45,664 nucleotides of DNA from Pararcticibacter amylolyticus (GTDB lineage Bacteria > Bacteroidota > Bacteroidia > Sphingobacteriales > Sphingobacteriaceae), in the NCBI RefSeq assembly GCF_003130405.1, contig NZ_QEAS01000016.1:30339-76002 (forward strand). Direction: 5' to 3'. Made by a program: the position numbers and the translations under genes. Below the pieces are notes generated by a model. That model made no database searches. It worked only from the letters and a program-made list of their open reading frames with translations, and was not told the origin of the DNA. Positions 16,819 through 31,477 of the stretch are shown piece by piece. How positions within the stretch are numbered: the stretch's first letter is position 1; each line of letters opens with the position of its first letter.

Positions 16819-16968
16819 TATTTTTCAGCTCTTTGAGGAAGCAGGTTTTTGGTCAATACGCTTCACTTTACCCCGCCGGCAAAAAACCGTAACCATAAAA
16901 ATCCCCTCCCGTAAAAAAGCATCAGGTAATGGATGACGGTTTCCGGACCGGTTTATTTTAACTATGAA

Positions 16969-19900
16969 ATGATAACTACTTTTAAAAACTTCAAAACATC
17001 TTCTGCTGTTGCTTTGCTTCTTTTGACAATATGCGGACTTAAAACAACTCAGGCACAGGTAAATACACAATTTTCGTGGGGAAGTAATTTCAGAGGCATT
17101 CTCGTGGATGGAACTTCTAACACTAGCTATGTACCCAAATTAGTGGCCAACCCAGCTTGGAAAGCTGTAGCAGCGGGAGACGACTTTACCGTTTTTATTA
17201 AGCAGGACGGTACGCTTTGGGGGGTTGGGAACAATTCATGGACCGTAAATACCTACAATTCAGCAACTGATAAATTCGATATTCTACAATTGGGAAACGA
17301 AAGCGACTGGGCTGCTGTTGCAGTCAGCTGGGCTCACGTTTTAGCGCTAAAAACAAATGGAGAACTCTGGACGTGGGGATATAACTACGGAAACCTGGGA
17401 GACGGAACCACCGCAGAACGAAGTCAGTTTGCCAACAGGCGGCTTGTGCTTTACAATGTTAAAAAAATCGCAGCGGGCCCTTCAAATAATGGGACAATTC
17501 CTTACAGCTATGCTATCTCAACTGCCGGGAATCTATTTGCCTGCGGAGGTAATGCTAAAGGCCAGTTAGGCGATGGTTCGACAAGCAGACGTCTTAGCTG
17601 GGTATTGGCAGGAAATGATAACGACTGGGTTGATATACAGGCCGGACAGGAAACAGGTATCGGCTTAAAGCAAAACGGAACAGTGTTTGCCTGGGGAAAT
17701 AATCTTTCAGGGAATTTAGGAGATGGAACCACGACAAACCGCTTGAGTCCTCAACAAGTTCCCTCACTCGCTAATATAACGCAGATCAGCTCCCATGGAA
17801 GTACGGCATTCGCCATCCAAAATAACGGAAAACTATGGGTATGGGGATCCAATGGAAGCGGGCAGGCAGGTGTTACGTCACTCACGAAGATCCTGACACC
17901 CACGGAAGTAATGCCCGGAAGCACCTGGGCATCCGTCTCCTCTAGTTCATATTATTCTATGGGCATACAAACAAATGGATCACTATGGGGATGGGGCGAG
18001 AATATGTCGGGTGAACAAGGAAATGGAGGTACCTGGGGCAGTTCAACTCCTGCCTTGGTGGATGGAGGTTCCAGTTATGTTTCTGTCTATACAAATCTGG
18101 CATGGGGAGGTTCAACTTTCGCTGTAAGAAAGGGTGTGACGTGTACAGGCATCAGCCGTGTATCCGGACAAAGCGCGAATAACAACAGCGCCAGCCAGGA
18201 CTTCATAGTCTCATTTAATGCGGCGATTACAGGATTGGAAACCAATTACACGAAATATTTTAACCTTACCAGTCAGAAATCCGCTTTAACAAGCGCAACC
18301 CCGGTAGCAGGAACTAGCAATACACAGTGGAAGATCTCCGTTTCCGTTCCTGATAACGTAACAGATGTTCTATCTTTTGTAACACAAACGGGAAACGGCG
18401 GAAGCGCAGCGATCATAAACTCAATAACCAGTCCTCAAAATACCGTCGACCGCCAGGCCCCTTCTTTCAACGGCATCACCTTCGCCAGTAATAACAGCAA
18501 TCCTTCTCTGGCTAAAAACGGAAATATTATCTCTCTTACGTTTTCAACAAGCGAGAGCGTGAGCACACCTTCTGTCACTATCGGAGGCAAAACCGCAACT
18601 GTAACCAGCACCGGCACAAACGCCTGGAAAGCAGTATACACGATGACCAGCTCTGACACAGAGGGAACATTCGGCTACAGCATCAGTGCCAGCGACAATT
18701 TAGGCAATACAGGCACTACATCATCCCCCGGCGGCATCACCTATGATAGTACCAGCCCCTCTTTAATAGGTATAACGAGAGCCACACCCACTGCCTCACT
18801 AACGAAAGCAACAAGTGTGGTTTATAAAATAACATTCAGTGAAAACATAACAGGCCTGGATCTGACAGACCTCAATATAACAGCAGCCAGCACCCTTACT
18901 ACCGGAACTATGACGATGGCTCAGGGTACCACGGCAGCAGAATATAATGTAACCATTCCCGTTACCGGAGACGGAAATCTTCAGCTTGATCTGAAAACAT
19001 CAGGAAACGGGATTACCGATCCGGCAGGAAATGAAACAACGGGAGCTTACCCCCCGGGACAGGTATACACCATCGATCAGACGAAACCGGTCGTCAGCAG
19101 CATTACCAGGCTGACTCCTGCATCGGCTAATACCAATGCAACGTCTGTGATTTATAAAGTCACCTTCAGCGAAAACGTAACAGGTGTAAATGCGCCTGAT
19201 TTCAGTACTGTTGCCGGCAGCGGACTTACCGCCGGAACAATTACCGTAACTAACGGATCTACAGCAGCAGAATATAAGGTAACAGTTCCGGTAACCGGAA
19301 ACGGCACCTTGAAGCTCAATCTGAAAGATACAGGCACGGGTATTGCCGATCTTGCATCTAATGCGATTCCGGGAGGCTATACTTCCGGTGAAGAATATAC
19401 TGTTGATCAGACCAAACCTGCTGTAAGCAGTATTGTACGAATGGCTCCTTTAAACTCCAATACCAATGCAACATCGCTTACCTACAGGGTGACTTTTTCA
19501 GAACCCGTGTCGGGAGTAGATGCAACAGACTTCTCCGCTGTAACTTCCGGAGGAGTCAGTACCGGCGGGTTAACTCTTAAGGTACTCTCCGGACGGGAAT
19601 TCGATGTTACGGTAGCGTCAGTTAGCGGAACAGGAGACCTCCGTCTTGACCTGAACGCTTCGGGAACCGGAATTATCGACTGGGTAAGCAACCCTGTCTC
19701 AGGAGGATATAATTCGGGAGAGGCCTATTCGATCGATCAGACTCCGCCGTCTGTCAGCATTGTAAGACAAACGCCGTCCACAGAAAATATTAACGTCACT
19801 TCGGTTACTTACCGCGTCACTTTCTCGAAAAAAGTGAATAACGTCGATGCCTCAGACTTCGCAGCTATAGTCGTTTCAGGTAACATCGGTAAAGGCTCCA

Positions 19901-22900
19901 TAACAGTTGCGGCTGTTTCACCAGCCATTTACGATGTAACCCTGCCATCCTTAAGCGGAAACGGTACTCTCCGGCTTGATCTGAAACCGGGTACCGATAT
20001 TTACGACGACTTTGGAAATGCAGCTCCGGCTTATACTGCGGGTGAAGTTTATACCATAGACCAGGTGGTACCCGCTGTCAGCAGCATTGTGAAACAATCT
20101 CCTGCTGCGGCGAATACCAACGCTTCCTCCGTGACGTATAAAGTTACCTTCACTGAAAATGTAACAGGTGTAAAGGCAGCTCACTTCAATGCGACAACAA
20201 GCGGCGGACTTACAGCCGGAACGGTCACGCTTACAGCCGGCTCTACGGATGCAGAATATCTTGTGAGTGTACCGGTAACCGGAAGCGGTGCCGTACGCCT
20301 GGATCTGAAAGCCGGGTCTGTGATCAGCGATGCGGCAGGCAACACGGTTGCGGGCGCATATACTTCCGGCGAATTCTATACCATTGACCAGGCCAAACCT
20401 CAAACTACAGGCATCGTTCGGTATTCGCCTGCTACTGCCACTACAAATGCAGCGTCGGTTACTTACAAAGTAACCTTTAGCGAAAATGTAAATGGTGTGG
20501 ATGCAACTGCATTCAACGCGACGGCAGGCCCCGGCCTTACTGCCGGAACGCTTACAGTCTCGCAGGGCTCTACAGCAGCAGAATATATGGTGAGTATACC
20601 GGTGTCGGGAAGCGGCAGCTTGCGCCTGGATGTGAAATCTTCGGGTACAGCCATTGCCGACCTTGTGGGGAATACGATCCTGGGAGGGTATTCTTTAGGA
20701 GAAATTTACACGATCGACCAGGACGTACCTGCTGTCAGTTCAATCGTCAGACAAACACCTGCGACAGCTGCTACTAATGCTTCGCCGGTTGTTTATAAAG
20801 TTACTTTCAATAAAAATGTAACAGGTGTAGACGCACCTGACTTCATAGCGGCCGCAGGGACTGGTCTTACTACAGGGACCATCTCGGTCAGCAATGGAGC
20901 CAATGCAGCTCAGTACCTGGTGAGCATCCCTGCCACCGGCAACGGAACACTTCGCCTTGACCTGAAAGCCAGCGGAACGGGTATTTCAGATGCTACAGGA
21001 AATGCAATTGCAGGCGGATATACTTCAGGCGAGGTCTATACTATTGATCAGACAAAGCCTGTCCTGACTAGCATTGCGAGGCAGACGCCGCTGGCGGCTA
21101 ACACCAATGCCGCTTCGGTTACCTATAAAGTGACCTTCAGTGAAAATGTAACCGGCGTAAATGCGCCGGATTTCAGTGCTGCCGCAGGCAGCGGCCTTAC
21201 TGCAGGAACAATTACTGTCGTAAACGGCTCTAATGCCGCTGAATACCTGGTAACAGTCCCGGTAACCGGCAACGGAACACTCCGCCTTGACCTGAAGGCA
21301 AGCGGAACGGGCATCACGGATGCTGCGGGCAATGCCATCCCCGGAGGCTTTACTTCCGGTGAGATGTATACCATTGACCAGGCGCTGCCTGCTGTCAGCA
21401 GTATACTGAGACAAATACCGGCAGCTGCTGTTACCAATGCTGCTTCGGTTACTTACAAAGTCACCTTTAGTGAAAATGTATCGGGTGTAGACGCTGCTGA
21501 TTTCAGCACAACAGCTGGAAGCGGCCTGACAGCCGGTGCTCTGTCGGTTACTGCTGGTGCTTCCGCAGCTGAATATACTGTTACCATACCGGTTACAGGA
21601 AACGGTACCCTCCGGCTTAACCTGAAATCTTCCGGAACGGGCATTACAGACGGATCAGGTAACACGGTCTCAGGCGGATATTCCTCCGGCGAAATCTATA
21701 CCATCGATCAGATAACCCCAGCTGCAACCAGCATTACCAGGTTAACGCCCTCTACAGCGAAGGCCAATGCGGTTTCAGTTACCTATAAAGTTACTTTCAG
21801 CGAAATTGTATCGGGCGTGGACGCCGCTGACTTCAGCACGGTAGCGGGCACCGGTCTTACTGCCGGGACCCTCTCGGTAACGGAAGGCTCTTCTGCTGCT
21901 GAATACCTGGTGAGTGTGCCGGTAACAGGCAATGGAACTCTTCGTCTCGACCTGAAGGCATCGGGAACAGGAATTTCGGATCCCGCAGGCAACATGATTT
22001 CTTCCGGATACACGACCGGGGAGAGCTACACCATTGATCAGACATACCCTGTTGTGGCCGGTATCACCAGGCAAATGCCGTCGGCGGCAAATAACAACGC
22101 CACTTCAGTAATTTATAAAGTTCTCTTCAGCAAAAATGTATCCGGCGTGGATGCCGCCGATTTCACGGCAGTTACTGCCGCTGGCCTGACAGCCGGTACC
22201 ATCTCGGTTAGCCCGGGTTCATCAGCCGCCGAATATCTGGTAACCGTACCGGTGACCGGCAACGGAACCATCCGGCTCGACCTCAAAGATTCCGGCACAG
22301 GGATCGCCGATCCGGTCGGCAATGCGGTACAGGAAGGATATAACTCGGGTGAAGTCTATACCATTGACCAAACCCGTCCTCTGATCAGCAACATCGCGCG
22401 TCAAACACCATCAACTGGAGTTACAAATGCCTCCTCAGTAACATACAAGGTGACATTCAGCGAAAATGTCTCGGGGGTAAATGCTCCAGACTTTACCGCA
22501 ACAGCCAGCACTGGTGTTGTTACCGGTACCTTAACGGTAACTCCGGGCGCTACCGCAGCTGAATACCTGGTTTCCATGCCGGTAGCAGGAAATGGCACCC
22601 TCCGTCTGGATCTGAAGGCCAGTGGAACGGGTATCTATGATGCTTCAGGGAATGCGGTCGCAGGGGCGTTTACTTCCGGTGAAGTGTATACGATCGACCA
22701 GGTAAAACCTTCAGTTGGCAGTATTTTAAGGGAAAATCCTCTGGCTGCTAATGTCAACGCGGCCAGCGTCACATACAAAGTTACGTTTAGCGAACCGGTG
22801 CTGGGTGTGGATGTAACTGATTTTTACACTACCGCAGGTACTGGTCTTACAGCAGGTACTATTTCCATTATTCAGGGGGCAACTGCTGCTGAATACCTGG

Positions 22901-25656
22901 TGACAGTGCCGGTGACAGGAAGCGGCACCCTTCGCCTGGACCTAAAGTCCGGCGGTACAGGAATCGCCGATGCCGGTGGCAATGCCATCATGGGAGGCTA
23001 CACTTCAGGTCAGGTCTACACGATTGATCAGGCACTCCCGGCAGTCACCGGTATCGTGAGACAAAGCCCTGCGGCAGCCCTTACGAATGCGGCTTCGGTA
23101 ACTTATAAAATTACCTTCAGCAAAAATGTATCGGGCGTAGATGCCAGCGACTTCAGTGCATCTGTCACCGGTCTTACTGCAGGCACCATTTCGGTGAATC
23201 CGGGATCAACGGCAGCCGAATACATGGTAACAGTACCCGTGACAGGAAGCGGCACCATCCGCATGGACCTGAATACTTCTGGCACGGGCATTTCCGATGC
23301 TACCGGAAACGCAATAGCAGGCGGGTATACCTCAGGGGAGGCTTACACGGTCGACCAGGTAAAACCTGTGATCAGCACGATCAGTATTGCATCGGCCAAT
23401 ACAAATACAAGCATGGCAAAAGAAGGCGACATGGTGACCGTTTCCTTCCTGGCCAGTGAAGAACTAAAACTGAATATTACAGGAGGTTATAAGATACAGA
23501 TCGGCAGCCAGATGGTAACGGTAAAAGCCGATGCTGCCCGTTCCACCCCGACTGCATTCTGGTATAAAGCAGAAGCTTCCATGAACAAATCGGAAGCAGC
23601 AGACGCCAGCGGAAACATTAAAATTGCAATAGACGGATACAGTGACCCGGCAGGCAACACCGGGGTTTCACGGTCATCCACTACTGACGGCAGTAAAGTC
23701 ACACTCGACACCAGCGTTCCCGGCAAACCCGAACCTCCCGGGAAACCAGGCAATGACGGGCATGTCGATACCTCCACTCCGACGATCAGCGGAGTAACGG
23801 AGCCGAATGCTACGGTAGAGATCTATGTTGACGGAGTGAAAGTAGGTGAAGCTAAAGCAGACGCTAATGGCAACTGGCAATATACCTTTAACCCGCCGCT
23901 TAGCGAAGGCAGGCACGAGATCGTTATCCGGATACGGAACAGCGCAGGTACTGTCAGCGATCCGGCACCTCCTGTCGTGGTCTATGTAGATACCGAGCCT
24001 CCGGTTCAGCCAATGCCTCCGGATAAACCGGGGAATAACGGACATGTGAATACCGCCACCCCGACCATCAGCGGAACCGCTGAACCGAATGCGATCGTAG
24101 AGGTGTATGTAGACGGGGTGAAGGTTGGCGAAGCGAAAGCAGATGCAAACGGAAAATGGCAATACACGTTCAACCCGCCGCTTTCTGAAGGGGAACATGA
24201 AATACGTATCCGGATCCGGGATGAAGCAGGGAACAAAGGGGAACCTTCTTCTCCGGTCATCATTATCGTGGATATTGATATTCCGGATCAGCCCGAGCCT
24301 CCGGGTATACCTGGCAACAACGGACATGTAAATACCGATACTCCGACTATCAACGGGGTGGTTGCACCTAACGTAATTGTAGAGATTTATATAGACGGCG
24401 TGAAAGTGGGCGAAACCAGGTCAGATGAAAACGGGAAATGGCAATATACATTCAATCCGGCACTGGCACAGGGAGAACACGAGGTGACCATCCGCATACG
24501 TGATGAGGCTGGCAATACAGGCGAGCCTTCTGCTCCGGTTAAGATTATCGTAGATACAAAGGTTCCGGAGAAACCCAAAACACCGGAAGTAACAGGCAGC
24601 AATAACGGGAAAGTTGAAACCAATACTCCCACCCTGACAGGTACTGCAGAGCCTGGTACTACAGTAGAGATCTATGTTGACGGGAAGAAAGTGGGCGAAG
24701 CAAAGGTAGGAGCCGATGGCAAATGGGAATACACGTTCACAGAGCCTATTACAGAAGGCGAACATACCATCCGCGTGGTGATAGTAGATGCTGCCGGAAA
24801 CAGGAGCGAAAGGGCAAATGCTGTCATTATCAACGTTGCCGTTCCTAAAGGGAATACGACCATACAGCCTGCTGCTATCCCTGCCAAAACTTACGGTGAC
24901 GCTGCCTTTAAACTGGAAGCAACAAGCAACAGCCCTGCACGATTCACCTACTGGAGCAGCAACAAGCAGGTAGCTGCTATTAACGAAAACGGGATCGTGG
25001 AAATCTATCACGCAGGGACTACTACGCTGACCATTTCGCAGGCTTCTGCAACCGGGTTTGATCCGGCGACCGTATCGGTTGAGCTGGTGATCGCTAAAGC
25101 GGGTCAGCGGATCACCCTGATGCCTCTGCCGGAAATGGAAAGGCATGGGGCTCCTTATTCGCTGACGGTGAGCTCTTCTTCCGGCCTGCCGGTTGAAGTG
25201 ATCAGCTCAAACCCGCTTGTAGCAGGTATTTCGGGTACCAGCCTGAGTCCTCTGGGTATCGGAACGGCAAGAATCATTGCATCTCACCCTGGAAATGAAG
25301 ATTATCTTCCGGCTACCGCCGAAACGGAACTGAAGGTATTCGATCCTGTGGGTGAAGAGATCCGGATCAACAAGATCATCACCCCTAACGGCGACGGAAT
25401 AAATGATGAATTGTATATCGAAGGCCTCAGCAATGTGACGGAACACCGCCTGGTGCTCTTCAACCGCAACGGCACCAGGATGTTCGACAGCAAAACGTAC
25501 CCTACAGGCGATATCTATATTCCTCACGGAAGGTCTTTTGCCGGTCAACTGTATCATACCGGGTACCTGCCGGCAGGAACGTACTTCTATACGTTCGAGT
25601 ACAAGAAAGATGGAGTTTCAAAACTGATGACAGGCTACATTGTTCTGAAGTACTGA
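16969..25656 (+). CDS. Giant T9SS-exported RCC1 propeller / Ig-repeat surface protein
   Basis: About 2895 residues from the chosen start (MITTFKNFK, signal ending TTQAQ). The ATG at 16933 adds 12 residues before the signal. Residues about 33-390 form an RCC1-like 7-bladed propeller (NGELWTWGYN, GQLGDGST), with the first and last half-blades completing one blade. Two spacer domains follow. Residues 597-2132 are 14 Ig-like repeats with SVTYKVTFSENV, LRLDLKASGTGI and VYTIDQ. Next is a divergent Ig-like domain, then four Ig-like repeats (2251-2625: VEIYVDGVKVGEA, GKWQYTF) and two MBG/Ig-like units. The C terminus (IITPNGDGIND to TGYIVLKY) is a gliding-type CHU_C domain, a T9SS sorting signal. It is probably a long cell-surface adhesin or stalk. 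No enzyme motif was seen, and the ligand is unknown. Confidence 0.88.
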   Translation: MITTFKNFKTSSAVALLLLTICGLKTTQAQVNTQFSWGSNFRGILVDGTSNTSYVPKLVANPAWKAVAAGDDFTVFIKQDGTLWGVGNNSWTVNTYNSATDKFDILQLGNESDWAAVAVSWAHVLALKTNGELWTWGYNYGNLGDGTTAERSQFANRRLVLYNVKKIAAGPSNNGTIPYSYAISTAGNLFACGGNAKGQLGDGSTSRRLSWVLAGNDNDWVDIQAGQETGIGLKQNGTVFAWGNNLSGNLGDGTTTNRLSPQQVPSLANITQISSHGSTAFAIQNNGKLWVWGSNGSGQAGVTSLTKILTPTEVMPGSTWASVSSSSYYSMGIQTNGSLWGWGENMSGEQGNGGTWGSSTPALVDGGSSYVSVYTNLAWGGSTFAVRKGVTCTGISRVSGQSANNNSASQDFIVSFNAAITGLETNYTKYFNLTSQKSALTSATPVAGTSNTQWKISVSVPDNVTDVLSFVTQTGNGGSAAIINSITSPQNTVDRQAPSFNGITFASNNSNPSLAKNGNIISLTFSTSESVSTPSVTIGGKTATVTSTGTNAWKAVYTMTSSDTEGTFGYSISASDNLGNTGTTSSPGGITYDSTSPSLIGITRATPTASLTKATSVVYKITFSENITGLDLTDLNITAASTLTTGTMTMAQGTTAAEYNVTIPVTGDGNLQLDLKTSGNGITDPAGNETTGAYPPGQVYTIDQTKPVVSSITRLTPASANTNATSVIYKVTFSENVTGVNAPDFSTVAGSGLTAGTITVTNGSTAAEYKVTVPVTGNGTLKLNLKDTGTGIADLASNAIPGGYTSGEEYTVDQTKPAVSSIVRMAPLNSNTNATSLTYRVTFSEPVSGVDATDFSAVTSGGVSTGGLTLKVLSGREFDVTVASVSGTGDLRLDLNASGTGIIDWVSNPVSGGYNSGEAYSIDQTPPSVSIVRQTPSTENINVTSVTYRVTFSKKVNNVDASDFAAIVVSGNIGKGSITVAAVSPAIYDVTLPSLSGNGTLRLDLKPGTDIYDDFGNAAPAYTAGEVYTIDQVVPAVSSIVKQSPAAANTNASSVTYKVTFTENVTGVKAAHFNATTSGGLTAGTVTLTAGSTDAEYLVSVPVTGSGAVRLDLKAGSVISDAAGNTVAGAYTSGEFYTIDQAKPQTTGIVRYSPATATTNAASVTYKVTFSENVNGVDATAFNATAGPGLTAGTLTVSQGSTAAEYMVSIPVSGSGSLRLDVKSSGTAIADLVGNTILGGYSLGEIYTIDQDVPAVSSIVRQTPATAATNASPVVYKVTFNKNVTGVDAPDFIAAAGTGLTTGTISVSNGANAAQYLVSIPATGNGTLRLDLKASGTGISDATGNAIAGGYTSGEVYTIDQTKPVLTSIARQTPLAANTNAASVTYKVTFSENVTGVNAPDFSAAAGSGLTAGTITVVNGSNAAEYLVTVPVTGNGTLRLDLKASGTGITDAAGNAIPGGFTSGEMYTIDQALPAVSSILRQIPAAAVTNAASVTYKVTFSENVSGVDAADFSTTAGSGLTAGALSVTAGASAAEYTVTIPVTGNGTLRLNLKSSGTGITDGSGNTVSGGYSSGEIYTIDQITPAATSITRLTPSTAKANAVSVTYKVTFSEIVSGVDAADFSTVAGTGLTAGTLSVTEGSSAAEYLVSVPVTGNGTLRLDLKASGTGISDPAGNMISSGYTTGESYTIDQTYPVVAGITRQMPSAANNNATSVIYKVLFSKNVSGVDAADFTAVTAAGLTAGTISVSPGSSAAEYLVTVPVTGNGTIRLDLKDSGTGIADPVGNAVQEGYNSGEVYTIDQTRPLISNIARQTPSTGVTNASSVTYKVTFSENVSGVNAPDFTATASTGVVTGTLTVTPGATAAEYLVSMPVAGNGTLRLDLKASGTGIYDASGNAVAGAFTSGEVYTIDQVKPSVGSILRENPLAANVNAASVTYKVTFSEPVLGVDVTDFYTTAGTGLTAGTISIIQGATAAEYLVTVPVTGSGTLRLDLKSGGTGIADAGGNAIMGGYTSGQVYTIDQALPAVTGIVRQSPAAALTNAASVTYKITFSKNVSGVDASDFSASVTGLTAGTISVNPGSTAAEYMVTVPVTGSGTIRMDLNTSGTGISDATGNAIAGGYTSGEAYTVDQVKPVISTISIASANTNTSMAKEGDMVTVSFLASEELKLNITGGYKIQIGSQMVTVKADAARSTPTAFWYKAEASMNKSEAADASGNIKIAIDGYSDPAGNTGVSRSSTTDGSKVTLDTSVPGKPEPPGKPGNDGHVDTSTPTISGVTEPNATVEIYVDGVKVGEAKADANGNWQYTFNPPLSEGRHEIVIRIRNSAGTVSDPAPPVVVYVDTEPPVQPMPPDKPGNNGHVNTATPTISGTAEPNAIVEVYVDGVKVGEAKADANGKWQYTFNPPLSEGEHEIRIRIRDEAGNKGEPSSPVIIIVDIDIPDQPEPPGIPGNNGHVNTDTPTINGVVAPNVIVEIYIDGVKVGETRSDENGKWQYTFNPALAQGEHEVTIRIRDEAGNTGEPSAPVKIIVDTKVPEKPKTPEVTGSNNGKVETNTPTLTGTAEPGTTVEIYVDGKKVGEAKVGADGKWEYTFTEPITEGEHTIRVVIVDAAGNRSERANAVIINVAVPKGNTTIQPAAIPAKTYGDAAFKLEATSNSPARFTYWSSNKQVAAINENGIVEIYHAGTTTLTISQASATGFDPATVSVELVIAKAGQRITLMPLPEMERHGAPYSLTVSSSSGLPVEVISSNPLVAGISGTSLSPLGIGTARIIASHPGNEDYLPATAETELKVFDPVGEEIRINKIITPNGDGINDELYIEGLSNVTEHRLVLFNRNGTRMFDSKTYPTGDIYIPHGRSFAGQLYHTGYLPAGTYFYTFEYKKDGVSKLMTGYIVLKY
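18757..23364 (+). repeat. Fourteen tandem Ig-like coding repeats of about 330 bases
   Basis: Fourteen consecutive units of 108-110 codons, each running from a Pro before SSIxR to a closing YTIDQ. Units 5-14 are close to one another, while units 1, 3 and 4 are the most divergent. Several units share near-identical stretches such as the TGNGTLRLDLKASGTGI segment, yet codon choice varies. This suggests older duplication with partial later homogenisation. The region is prone to recombination and to short-read misassembly, so the copy number should be treated with care. Confidence 0.92.
23719..24843 (+). repeat. Four tandem Ig-like coding repeats of about 281 bases
   Basis: Four units of about 94 codons, each starting with a Pro-rich linker (KPEPPGKPGN), then HVxTxTPTIxG, EIYVDGVKVGE, KWQYTFNP, GEHEIxIRIRDEAGN and a closing IIVD. 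They resemble bacterial Ig-like domains of large adhesins. The last unit is the most divergent. They are unrelated in sequence to the 14-unit array upstream, so the protein was built from two separate amplifications. Confidence 0.88.
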
Positions 25657-28348: not shown

Positions 28349-31300
28349 TTATTTAACACGCATAATCCAGCGTACAGTGAATGACTGCGGACGATTGTCT
28401 ATGGCAGTTTGTGTACCACTGTTCAGGTTGACTGACCCCGTGTGTGAATGCGGTGCCATTTGCGATCCGTAGAAATAAGCATTGTGAGTATGATATCCGG
28501 CTGAAGAAGTCTGGTTAATTGGCCAGCCTTCACCATCACCGCCGTTATTCTTACCACTCCAGCCTTCCAGCGAGAAGGCCATGACATCTGATATACTATG
28601 CGAGTGTTCTCCAGCTCCGGATACGGAGATCGTACCACTAGGAGTTCCGGCAGTCGTCGCCGAGGTTGTAAACGGAAGAGATGTGCCCGGAAGATTAGAT
28701 GCAGTGAGAGTTGTCGAATTATTCCCAACGGTACCACCAGTACCAGTACTGGAGCCCGTCAGGTAAGATCCGCTGTTCAGATTAGGAATCGTAATTCCGT
28801 TCAGAACGCTTTGTGTATCATTTAAAACCTGCCCGTTACATTCTACGAAATTTGGCGATAGCGTAGCACTGCTCAGGAGGTTAGGGAACCAGGCCACTAC
28901 AGAGCCGACCGGGACCAGGCCAACAGTAAGGGCATTCATCTGCTCCTGGATATTCCTGGTTATTCCACTCAATGACTGAAATTCTGTATTAGTAACAGAA
29001 CCGTTTGCTACCCTTGCGGCATCAATCGTTGAAGACAACGCTGCTTTCCCGCTGGCATCGGTCATATAAACCTTATTCGCATCCGCCAGGCCTTCAGTTC
29101 CCAGCTTTGCCAGTGTTACATTGGCATCGGCAATCTTAACTGTTGTTACAGCAGCATCAGCAATCTTCGCTGTTGTGACAGCGACATCAGAAATTTTAGG
29201 TGTCGTTACATTCTGATCTGCGATCTTAACAGTTGTCACTGCATTATCCCGGATGTGATCGGTCGTCACCGCCCGGTTTGCATCCACACTTCCGTCCCAG
29301 GCAAGCTTGGCGGATGTAATAGCTTTATCCCTCACGTGATTAGTGGTGACGGCGCGATAAGCATCGACACTGGCATCTGATGAGAGCTTCGCCGAGCTCA
29401 CAGCATTATTCCGAATGTGGTTAGCTGTCACTGCACGGTTCGCATCCACGCTTCCGTCTGCGGCCAGTTTGTCGGAAGTCACGGCATTATCCTTAATATG
29501 ATTGGTGCTGACAGCACGGTAAGCATCTATGCTGGCATCGGAGGAAAGTTTGGATGATGTGACGGCATTATTCCGGATATGTTGAGTAGTCACCGCCCTG
29601 TTGGCATCAATACTGGCATCCGAAGCAAGTTTGCTTGAAGTAACAGCATTACTTCCTATAGCCAGTTCGCCCGTATTGGAAATCCCGGCGTCCCCGCTCA
29701 TAGGCATGGCCGTTGCCACTCCTGAAGCGTTTCCTACAAAGATCTGGGCACTTGGAAGGGTGCTGGTACCAAACTCTGAACGGTTTGCCAGCACGGGTGT
29801 TCCCGACTCATCTGTGGTATATACTTTATTACCATCACTTGCACCGGCTGTCGCCAGCTTCGCCATCGTTACATTGGCATTGGCGATCTTAACCGTTGTA
29901 ATAGCCGCATCTGCTAATTTTGCAGCAGAAACAGCCTGGTCCTTTATGTGGTCTGTACCAACGGCCCTGTTGGCGTCGGTGCTGGCGTCTGATGCAAGTT
30001 TGGCTGAAGTAACAGCGTTATCCCGGATGTGGTTGGTGGTCACGGCACGATTTGCATCCGTATTAGCGTCAGAGGAGAGTTTAGCCGAAGTTACAGCGTT
30101 GTTTTTGATGTGATTGACCGATACAGCACGGTTAGCGTCAGTACTGGCATCAGAAGCAAGTTTAAGCGAAGTGATTGCATTGTTGCCGATAGTGAGGGCT
30201 CCCGCATTGGAGATCTTTGCATCTCCCGTTAAAGCAGTTGCAGTAGCCACTCCGGAGGCATTTCCTACTGTGATATAGGCACTTGGCAGCGCGCTGGTAA
30301 CAAACTCCGAGCGGTTTATCAGCACTGGCGTTCCAAATGCATCTGTGATATACACCTTATTAGCATCATCTGTTCCGCCTGTCGCGAGTTTCGCTACGGT
30401 TACATTAGCATCGGCAATCTTGTTCACAGTAACCGCATTGTCGGCAATCTTAGCGGCAACAACAGCATTGTCCCTGATATGATCAGTGGTTACAGCCCTG
30501 TTGGCATCTGTACTGGCATCGGAAGCAAGCTTGGATGAGGTAACCGCATTATTCCGGATGTGATTCGTCGTTACAGCACGATTAGCGTCATTAGCAGCGT
30601 CAGAAGAAAGCTTTACTGATGTAATGCTGCCATCAACGACTTTACTGGATGTGATACTGCCATCAGCCAGTTTCCCTGTACTTACTGCGTTATCGGCAAG
30701 CATACTATTCACCACTTTAGAGGCCCCGATAGCCGTGACGCCGCTTGAATTGAGTGTCACATCGCCCGAAAGAGTTACAGTTTGTGCTCTATTGCTGGCA
30801 TCTCCCAGCACGATTTGTCCGCTGCTAAGGGAAGAGCTGACAAACTGCGAACGGTCTATCCATACACTGGCCCCGGTTGCATCTGTCGTAAGCACCTTGT
30901 TATTACCAGCCCCCAAACCTGCTTTTACCGCCGTTACCGCCTGATCAGCCAGCTTACTGGTTGTCACCTTTCCGTTTACTATACTTACAAGACCAGTCCG
31001 GTCAAGCGTAATATCCCCGGATAATGTGACGGCAGCAGCAGTACCTGTTGCATCTCCTACCAGTATCTTGCCATCAGCCAAATTGGTATAGGCAAAAGTC
31101 ACCCAGGTGAAGTTATTACGAACGTAAAACTTCCCTGTGGTCAGGTCGTAAACAATCATTCCCTCTACTGCATTAACGATGGCTGGGTTTGCTGCATCCA
31201 GCAGGTTTGCTACGCGCGGAATCAGAATAGCTTTGTCATTGCCGTTGACCTGCAGGGCGACAGAATGGTTATTTACAGCTGCTGCTGTACCTATAACTGC

Positions 31301-31477
31301 CCCCTGGGCATTGAGTACGCTCACACTGTCGATCCGGTGTGAGTTCATGTTCAAATCACGGGTCGCCTGGTGTGAGCCAAGGTTGTCCCCGTATTTTTGC
31401 TGCGCGAACAGAACGTTACTACAAAAAAGCATGGCGGCTGCAACGCCGCACTTATAAAATTTTATTGAATTCTTCAC
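28349..31477 (-). CDS. Secreted phage tail-fibre-like repeat protein with collar domain
   Basis: A 1042-residue protein with a signal peptide (about 1-26, ending NVLFAQ). Residues about 30-280 include a head region (MIVYDLTTGKFYVRNNFTWV) and fibre-like repeats (KVTTSKLADQAVTAVKAGLG). Residues 284-745 hold ten 27-residue repeats of the type AVTSSKLASDASTDANRAVT plus TNHIRDN, interrupted by two copies of a roughly 95-residue module. The C terminus (about 865-1042) resembles a phage tail-collar domain (VPVGSVVAWFP, FVECNGQVLND, ending NRPQSFTVRWIMRVK). It has three HxH pairs near 958/960, 996/998 and 1010/1012 that could bind metal in a trimer. No phage genes are nearby and no T9SS domain is visible. 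It is probably a surface fibre. Function unknown. Confidence 0.8.
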   Translation of the reverse strand: MKNSIKFYKCGVAAAMLFCSNVLFAQQKYGDNLGSHQATRDLNMNSHRIDSVSVLNAQGAVIGTAAAVNNHSVALQVNGNDKAILIPRVANLLDAANPAIVNAVEGMIVYDLTTGKFYVRNNFTWVTFAYTNLADGKILVGDATGTAAAVTLSGDITLDRTGLVSIVNGKVTTSKLADQAVTAVKAGLGAGNNKVLTTDATGASVWIDRSQFVSSSLSSGQIVLGDASNRAQTVTLSGDVTLNSSGVTAIGASKVVNSMLADNAVSTGKLADGSITSSKVVDGSITSVKLSSDAANDANRAVTTNHIRNNAVTSSKLASDASTDANRAVTTDHIRDNAVVAAKIADNAVTVNKIADANVTVAKLATGGTDDANKVYITDAFGTPVLINRSEFVTSALPSAYITVGNASGVATATALTGDAKISNAGALTIGNNAITSLKLASDASTDANRAVSVNHIKNNAVTSAKLSSDANTDANRAVTTNHIRDNAVTSAKLASDASTDANRAVGTDHIKDQAVSAAKLADAAITTVKIANANVTMAKLATAGASDGNKVYTTDESGTPVLANRSEFGTSTLPSAQIFVGNASGVATAMPMSGDAGISNTGELAIGSNAVTSSKLASDASIDANRAVTTQHIRNNAVTSSKLSSDASIDAYRAVSTNHIKDNAVTSDKLAADGSVDANRAVTANHIRNNAVSSAKLSSDASVDAYRAVTTNHVRDKAITSAKLAWDGSVDANRAVTTDHIRDNAVTTVKIADQNVTTPKISDVAVTTAKIADAAVTTVKIADANVTLAKLGTEGLADANKVYMTDASGKAALSSTIDAARVANGSVTNTEFQSLSGITRNIQEQMNALTVGLVPVGSVVAWFPNLLSSATLSPNFVECNGQVLNDTQSVLNGITIPNLNSGSYLTGSSTGTGGTVGNNSTTLTASNLPGTSLPFTTSATTAGTPSGTISVSGAGEHSHSISDVMAFSLEGWSGKNNGGDGEGWPINQTSSAGYHTHNAYFYGSQMAPHSHTGSVNLNSGTQTAIDNRPQSFTVRWIMRVK
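29243..30628 (-). repeat. Nested array of ten 27-residue repeats in blocks of 2, 3 and 5
   Basis: In reading order the 81-base units occur as 2 copies, a linker module, 3 copies, a second linker module, then 5 copies. The two linkers share KIADANVTVAKLAT, SEFVTSxLPS and VGNASGVATA-type segments, so block and linker form a larger repeat. Within a unit, Ala/Ser-Lys-Leu and Asp-Ala-Asn-Arg-Ala-Val are nearly constant. The pattern suggests unequal crossing-over within an older super-repeat. Confidence 0.85.

Follow-up and report, generated by a model that had tools for sequence, protein, structure and literature searches.

An exported fibre with a gp12-type collar tip in the chromosome of Pararcticibacter amylolyticus, a probable surface adhesin of mosaic design

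Introduction

Phage-type fibres used by bacteria outside a phage are already known from Bdellovibrio, whose MAT proteins are described as exported fibres of ~1000 amino acids with a conserved end next to the signal peptide, a beta-rich shaft and a swappable C-terminal tip, that is, as phage-type modules without a phage (PMC10769870). The MAT superfamily is marked by a conserved beta-rich N domain of ~130 amino acids after the signal peptide, which is represented by the NCBIfam model NF053851 (PMC10769870). Among fibres with a collar domain, T4 gp12 holds zinc at its HxH (His-x-His) motif in the crystal, the natural metal being uncertain, and in R-pyocin fibres an octahedral site of six histidines from three chains holds iron, with similar sites in gp37 (PMC6116203). 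Type-B adhesins of the type IX secretion system (T9SS), such as SprB with SprF, offer a further comparison (PMC9143113). Here we describe a fibre gene in a 45,664-nucleotide stretch of Pararcticibacter amylolyticus (contig NZ_QEAS01000016.1 of assembly GCF_003130405.1, positions 30,339 to 76,002, forward strand), the whole of which is called the window below.

A first-pass annotation, made from the letters of the window, had proposed that this gene encodes a secreted tail-fibre-like protein without a phage. Our analysis indicates, with a probability of roughly two in three, that the product is a chromosomal, Sec-exported, trimeric surface fibre adhesin of mosaic design which is not part of a phage; its trimeric state, surface location, metal and ligand are what we infer for it. 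The coordinates of its parts are collected in Table 1.

Results

A likely signal peptide and a gp12-type tip

The N terminus of the fibre contains three lysines and the hydrophobic core VAAAMLFCSNVL, followed by the junction VLFA/QQ, as read from the sequence without a signal-peptide program. This junction agrees with the Bacteroidetes Q-rule (PMC5837995), and an A-Q or G-Q junction was observed by eye in 12 of 12 base-domain proteins among those listed. Hydropathy alone is not decisive, since the signal core scores 2.02 and a stretch of the tip (residues 850-861) scores 2.06; no lipoprotein-type cysteine follows the junction. The signal peptide proposed in the first-pass annotation is therefore considered likely, and the protein is predicted to be exported and not cytoplasmic.

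When the full-length fibre was searched, 0 Pfam families and no NCBIfam match were obtained at E <= 1, and phmmer against the PDB likewise returned nothing. A tip-only alignment (A3) was more informative; its 42 rows comprise 38 of 51 viral tip domains, the window fibre and three loci from metagenome-assembled genomes (MAGs), namely L018 from a Bacteroidota MAG and L019 and L020 from a Goldiibacteriota MAG. The A3 profile matched the PDB entry 9cuy ('Short tail fiber') with E 2.2e-4 over profile positions 4-126 of 129 and T4 gp12 (1ocy) with E 0.007 over positions 4-129 of 129, in line with the tail-collar-like C terminus that had been claimed. With the tip alone (the last 209 residues), Pfam gave Gp10_C at 0.022 and DUF2931 at 0.027, both under the cut-off, and the best of the PHROGs tail families was reached at 2.3e-5. 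The Pfam Collar model (PF07484) had no match in the fibre or in the tip at E <= 1 and none in the organism's own genome at E <= 0.001. By profile the tip is assigned to the gp12-type collar domains, though the Pfam Collar model misses it.

The AlphaFold2 model of the tip was confident only in blocks 21-70 (the collar core) and 201-209. Its first Foldseek match was 1ocy, weak at E 0.015, and VIA also placed 1ocy first, with Z 6.1 (below 8) and a root-mean-square deviation of 4.9 over 71 residues, the middle of the model being of low confidence. In BFVD, the matches at E <= 0.001 were one tail-fibre protein, two collar-domain proteins, one uncharacterized phage protein and four proteins without a name. 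The fibre resembles T4 gp12 and collar-domain fibres (1ocy, 9cuy) in its tip domain, in HxH and in the C-terminal strand (YIIKVK in gp12, WIMRVK in the fibre), but unlike gp12 it has a signal peptide and a base domain and lies outside a phage.

An order-wide search with alignment A1 had reached 71 of 300 genomes, nearly all of them through the N-terminal MAT_N-like halves of L018 and L020 and not through the tip, and A3 was therefore built from tips only. Such a MAT_N-like domain seems to be widespread in the order (those 71 genomes, e.g. L084-L112), in open frames of 160 to ~3000 amino acids. A holin-family NCBIfam match of L018 (19.5 bits against a cut-off of 39.7) was taken as chance.

Histidine pairs and a candidate metal site

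The three HxH pairs pointed out in the first-pass annotation take up all six histidines of residues 834-1042 (958, 960, 996, 998, 1010 and 1012), and three pairs arose in 1 of 20,000 residue shuffles of the tip. In the A3 columns of the first pair, 39 of 42 rows have histidine at the first position and 29 of 42 have it at both. In the columns of the second pair it was found in 1 of 42 rows at each position, and in those of the third in 2 of 42 at the second position and outside the five commonest entries at the first, the loop there being poorly aligned. This rarity is limited to the columns concerned, since two pairs or more are present in 7 of the 51 viral tips. At least one HxH was present in 46 of the 51 viral tips, and this is the fair figure; the count of 40 in the 42 rows of A3 is too favourable, because the 13 tips outside A3 include four without HxH (L049, L054, L070 and L076). 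The set of 51 was left after 2 of 53 tips with identical starts had been removed, and loci without a qualifying open reading frame (ORF; e.g. L058, L059, L080 and L082) had been excluded earlier.

By analogy with the described fibres, a trimer with a metal at HxH would be the natural reading of the tip, and additional metals may sit at the second and third pairs. There are seven HxH motifs in each of two viral-contig tip proteins (L071 and L073), where metal sites may be stacked.

Base domain and repeat shaft

The organism's own genome has, on contig C71, a 1424-amino-acid paralogue with similar repeats and a different end, to which residues 4-189 of the window fibre are 55% identical. A profile of the base found relatives in 55 of 300 genomes of the order at E <= 0.001, mostly partial, and the base was nearly full-length in six genomes (its own, G166, G249, G085, G045 and G097). 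No relative of the base was found in viral contigs by a pattern scan with two peptides, which is a limited search, and a profile search of PDB sequences gave nothing convincing (best E 0.44). The best-predicted core of the base model weakly resembles trimeric tailspike heads and the trimerization domains of collagen XV/XVIII; with a model too poor and matches of Z <= 4, a claim on the base fold was dropped.

For the shaft, the earlier claim of fibre-type repeats was borne out. Over residues 130-840 the self-identity was 0.38 at a shift of 177 and 0.276 at a shift of 27, far above the maximum of 0.151 in 200 shuffles, and a DANRAV-type motif occurs 13 times in the fibre with a spacing of 27 in 7 of 12 intervals. 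A BLAST self-comparison had found no repeats and was superseded by this autocorrelation. Matches to the repeats came from PHROGs tail-fibre families (best 1.3e-43) and from 128 phage records, the latter all with less than 60% identity; among the 20 phage-collection matches listed, the earliest fibre residue matched is not before 133. The shaft repeats show style, not descent.

Table 1. Parts of the fibre gene, in window positions.
Feature	Position	Strand	Evidence
Fibre gene	28349..31477	-	ORF list and translation: GTG start, 1042 amino acids
Likely signal peptide, residues 1-25	31403..31477	-	Read from sequence, hydropathy, Q-rule; predicted cleavage before QQKYGD
Base domain, residues 26-130	31088..31402	-	Identity to C71 paralogue; near full-length foreign matches
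Repeat shaft, residues 131-840	28958..31087	-	Autocorrelation against shuffles; PHROGs tail-fibre families; phage records
Predicted neck helix, residues 836-854	28916..28972	-	AlphaFold2 helix, tip residues 3-21
gp12-type collar tip, residues 855-1042, C-terminal end VRWIMRVK	28352..28915	-	Profile and fold matches; alignment A3
First HxH pair (H958, H960), family-wide metal-site candidate	28598..28606	-	A3 columns
Second HxH pair (H996, H998)	28484..28492	-	No other A3 row with His here
Third HxH pair (H1010, H1012)	28442..28450	-	His rare in A3 columns

Relatives of the tip in bacteria and viruses

The organism's own genome is 97.7% complete, and the genome sets searched here are samples. 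Besides the three MAG loci named above, relatives of the tip were found at 48 viral-contig loci. All 8 neighbouring genes tested there (at 7 of the 48 loci) match PHROGs tail or head/packaging families, the weakest being a portal match at L069 (1.9e-6) and a tape-measure match at L045 (4.6e-8). A hydropathy of 2.0 within the first 35 residues was reached by 9 of 56 viral tip ORFs, and among the eight listed only L036 has a possible signal.

When the phylum was searched with A3, the tip was detected at E <= 1e-5 in 3 of 395 genomes, namely its own, G019 and G695. The G019 protein is 149 amino acids long and without a signal peptide. The G695 protein (L193:6363-9500, 1045 amino acids) has, by eye, a signal peptide, followed by a related base, a different shaft and the tip; its base was aligned with the window base by hhalign with a probability of 95.6 and E 1.3e-8 over 68 columns, and its tip matches PF07484 at 7.6e-4, below the cut-off. 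The four neighbours of this gene tested with Pfam are two glycosyltransferases, an NAD synthase and a response regulator. As judged from the sequences, base and tip are joined in two distant chromosomes with no phage genes seen nearby, and L193 is counted as an independent example. L018 and L020 have an apparent signal peptide and the tip, together with a base that matches MAT_N weakly. Bases and tips are mixed among L018, L020, L193 and the window fibre, which is the pattern of a mosaic adhesin. Tail genes, whose presence beside relatives the first-pass annotation had held to be a point against its proposal, were not seen at these three signal-peptide-bearing tip loci, where the neighbourhood of L193 was covered by Pfam for four neighbours and by reading for the rest, and those of L018 and L020 by reading of translations.

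The Mdp-type PF07484 proteins of ~180 amino acids have the collar fold that is predicted for the tip of the fibre. They differ in another C terminus, in their frequent tandem arrangement as pairs or triplets and the usual lack of a signal peptide (as seen in 10 of the 30 loci L150-L179), and in having no match in the fibre's own genome (E <= 0.001). The Collar family as such is present in 84 of 201 genomes of the order.

Comparison with MAT fibres

The window fibre shows the MAT layout, with a signal peptide (by reading), a repeat shaft and a variable tip on one base, and like the Bdellovibrio proteins it joins export, a length of ~1000 residues and phage-type modules without a phage. Unlike them it lacks the MAT N domain (no match to NF053851 at E <= 1), its relatives have T9SS neighbours, and a collar tip is absent from the six tip structures listed for MATs, as is the word 'collar' from the main text of that paper (PMC10769870). 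Weak NF053851 matches, against a cut-off of 60 bits, were obtained for L141:4965-6074 (41.9), L142:13262-14785 (42.5), L020 (26.4), a 352-amino-acid protein of C71 (24.7) and L018 (16.6). By its N domain the fibre falls outside the MATs of Bdellovibrio, although it would work in the same way.

Fibre clusters around related base domains

On C71 the 1424-amino-acid paralogue stands in one row on one strand (L021 6203-12725) with the 352-amino-acid weak-MAT_N protein and a 351-amino-acid CHU_C protein (5.2e-23), CHU_C being a type IX secretion domain. In each of the five foreign base-domain loci L141-L145, a CHU_C protein and a PorP/SprF gene are found beside the fibre genes, so that of the six base-domain loci other than the window CHU_C is present in 6 and PorP_SprF in 5. 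T9SS C-terminal domains were found in the partners of these clusters and also in a 2907-amino-acid protein of the window (16933-25656, + strand), which has RCC1 repeats, many bacterial Ig-like domains and a CHU_C domain.

The base-domain fibres of L141 (10539-14768; YadA_head 3.4e-15, S74 1e-11) and L142 (6091-8820; YadA_head 7.9e-24, S74 3e-10) carry modules typical of trimers. These exported S74/YadA-head fibres of the order share the base domain, export signal and chromosomal setting with the window fibre, but they end in S74 chaperones and lie in PorP/SprF and CHU_C clusters, whereas the window fibre is collar-ended and solitary. With T9SS type-B adhesins such as SprB and its SprF (PMC9143113), the likeness lies in the idea of a surface adhesin and in the PorP/SprF genes beside the fibre clusters; the difference is that the window fibre has no T9SS C-terminal sorting domain (PF13585 and TIGR04131, no match at E <= 1 in Pfam and NCBIfam).

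Just beyond the fibre cluster of L141 (15779-17425), two neighbouring genes encode proteins that combine an apparent signal peptide with a Bacteroidota-type base and Pfam Collar (1.3e-18 and 3.7e-20); both carry an HSH or HRH motif. On contig C30 of the organism's own genome (L188, L189 and L032), a PorP/SprF gene, a 1906-amino-acid fibre, a 1698-amino-acid S74 fibre and a protein of at least 3998 amino acids stand in a row. At four other loci of this type in the genus a 'GIGTTTPD' fibre and an S74-type fibre were seen in all, and a PorP-like gene in 3 of 4, the fourth stretch having ended earlier; the fourth gene of the row differs in one of them, and most loci of this exported-fibre type have a very long repeat protein. 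The S74 and PorP of C30 were confirmed by profile in the own genome, and the other genus genomes were judged by eye.

Surroundings of the gene

All 22 of the other larger window genes have a cellular Pfam match and none is phage structural, which upholds the claim of a stretch lacking phage genes. They include MatE, YaaH-type, RRM, HxlR, short-chain dehydrogenase, LysR, GH127, SusD-type and two-component genes. SusC/SusD-type, T9SS-type and PorP/SprF genes, together with the Q-rule junction, fit an assignment of the organism to the Bacteroidota. Relatives of the MATE neighbour were found in 4 of 5 other genomes of the genus, but with no other neighbour of the fibre within ~5 kb there, so that a search for the empty site failed; two weak matches were to other window genes.

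The G+C content is 0.496 in the fibre gene and 0.467 in the window, of which the repeats may be the cause. A Bacteroidota-type promoter pattern was matched once in the window, where 1.36 matches were expected; this match lies within the gene on the opposite strand and gives no evidence.

Discussion

The proposed fibre would be exported by Sec, and three chains would wind together from base to tip, as homology and the trimer modules of the relatives suggest. The base would hold the fibre at the outer membrane and the shaft would project the tip, which may adopt the trimeric gp12-type fold, locked by one metal ion between six histidines, two per chain, and may bind a glycan or another polymer on neighbouring cells or surfaces. 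The crossing of the outer membrane is the least certain step of this mechanism. Since the fibre genes of relatives adjoin a T9SS type-B protein, and PorP/SprF in 5 of 6 loci, we propose that such a protein and a PorP/SprF porin would carry and anchor the fibres, a proposal drawn from gene neighbourhood and from the literature on T9SS (PMC9143113). The window fibre stands alone and would need a partner encoded elsewhere.

Several observations weigh against this picture. Few genomes of the phylum carry the tip, the base was modelled poorly (predicted local distance difference test score, pLDDT, of 54.9), and the pLDDT of the tip model is 57, 49 and 53 at the blocks of the three HxH pairs. In the C71 paralogue Pfam shows neither S74 nor collar. 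A T9SS signal is missing from the fibre itself, and all eight PorP_SprF genes of its genome lie on contigs other than C45 and C71, none of them near the fibre. Furthermore, L141 and L142 belong to one genus and L143-L145 to another, so that together with the own genome the clusters represent at most three lineages.

Alternatively, the protein could be exported for a structural or matrix role, forming a trimeric filament in the envelope, in a biofilm or in outer-membrane vesicles, with a tip that trimerises and caps the fibre and has no target. Trimer caps can serve folding alone, and the C71 paralogue carries another end on the same base and repeats. However, structure searches match the tip best to a receptor-binding domain from a phage fibre (1ocy), and the ends vary on a kept base as they do in adhesin families; we regard this alternative as rather unlikely. 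A tail-fibre gene stranded after the decay of a prophage would account for the resemblance of tip and repeats to phage tail fibres and for the phage structural genes around the viral-contig tip genes, but it is hard to reconcile with a long intact ORF having a likely signal peptide, which is uncommon among viral tip ORFs, with a base for which the limited pattern scan found no viral relative, with the same design beside housekeeping genes in the distant genome of L193, and with the lack of phage structural genes among the window's other larger genes. Such an origin of the entire gene is improbable. The first-pass annotation had suggested that the fibre may be domesticated, and a part of this idea stands: given its presence at 48 viral loci and in 3 of the 395 phylum genomes, the tip could plausibly have passed from a phage to a bacterium, as judged without a tree. 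The lack of a viral base relative, within the limits of the pattern scan, favours a phage-type tip on a bacterial fibre over the takeover of a whole phage fibre.

A decoy or receptor block against phages using the same receptor, also raised in the first-pass annotation, draws on the phage-type tip only; no known defence gene is among the Pfam-named neighbours and tblastn of the tip matched 0 of 50,697 phage records at E <= 0.01. The decoy role found no support and is very improbable. The tip model also matches the tail fibre of a Photorhabdus injection system (8on5, VIA Z 5.4), which raises the thought that the fibre belongs to a contractile injection system whose other genes lie elsewhere in the genome. 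A signal peptide is at odds with such systems, as their assembly takes place in the cytoplasm, and no Phage_sheath_1 was found in the 97.7% complete genome at E <= 0.1, whereas a control search found this family in 3 of 14 known genomes; this we consider scarcely credible.

The surface adhesin remains the preferred reading, and a wider and clearly more doubtful proposal may be built on it. Bacteroidota may own a mosaic trimeric-fibre system in which fibres lacking a T9SS signal combine a dedicated base with YadA heads and with exchangeable ends of phage type (gp12 collar, S74), and in which the fibre leaves the cell with a co-encoded type-B protein bearing a C-terminal domain and with PorP/SprF; the window gene would then be a solitary member with a phage receptor-binding tip. 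Among the top listings of open-licence PMC literature, no title on a T9SS-linked mosaic fibre system was found.

The present case joins a receptor-binding tip of gp12 type to a bacterial export base, in a phylum other than that of Bdellovibrio. The T9SS/PorP neighbourhood of the relatives is the most interesting part of the finding, as these clusters could explain how fibres without a T9SS signal are displayed on the surface. If the T9SS link is true, passengers can leave the cell with a signal-bearing partner.

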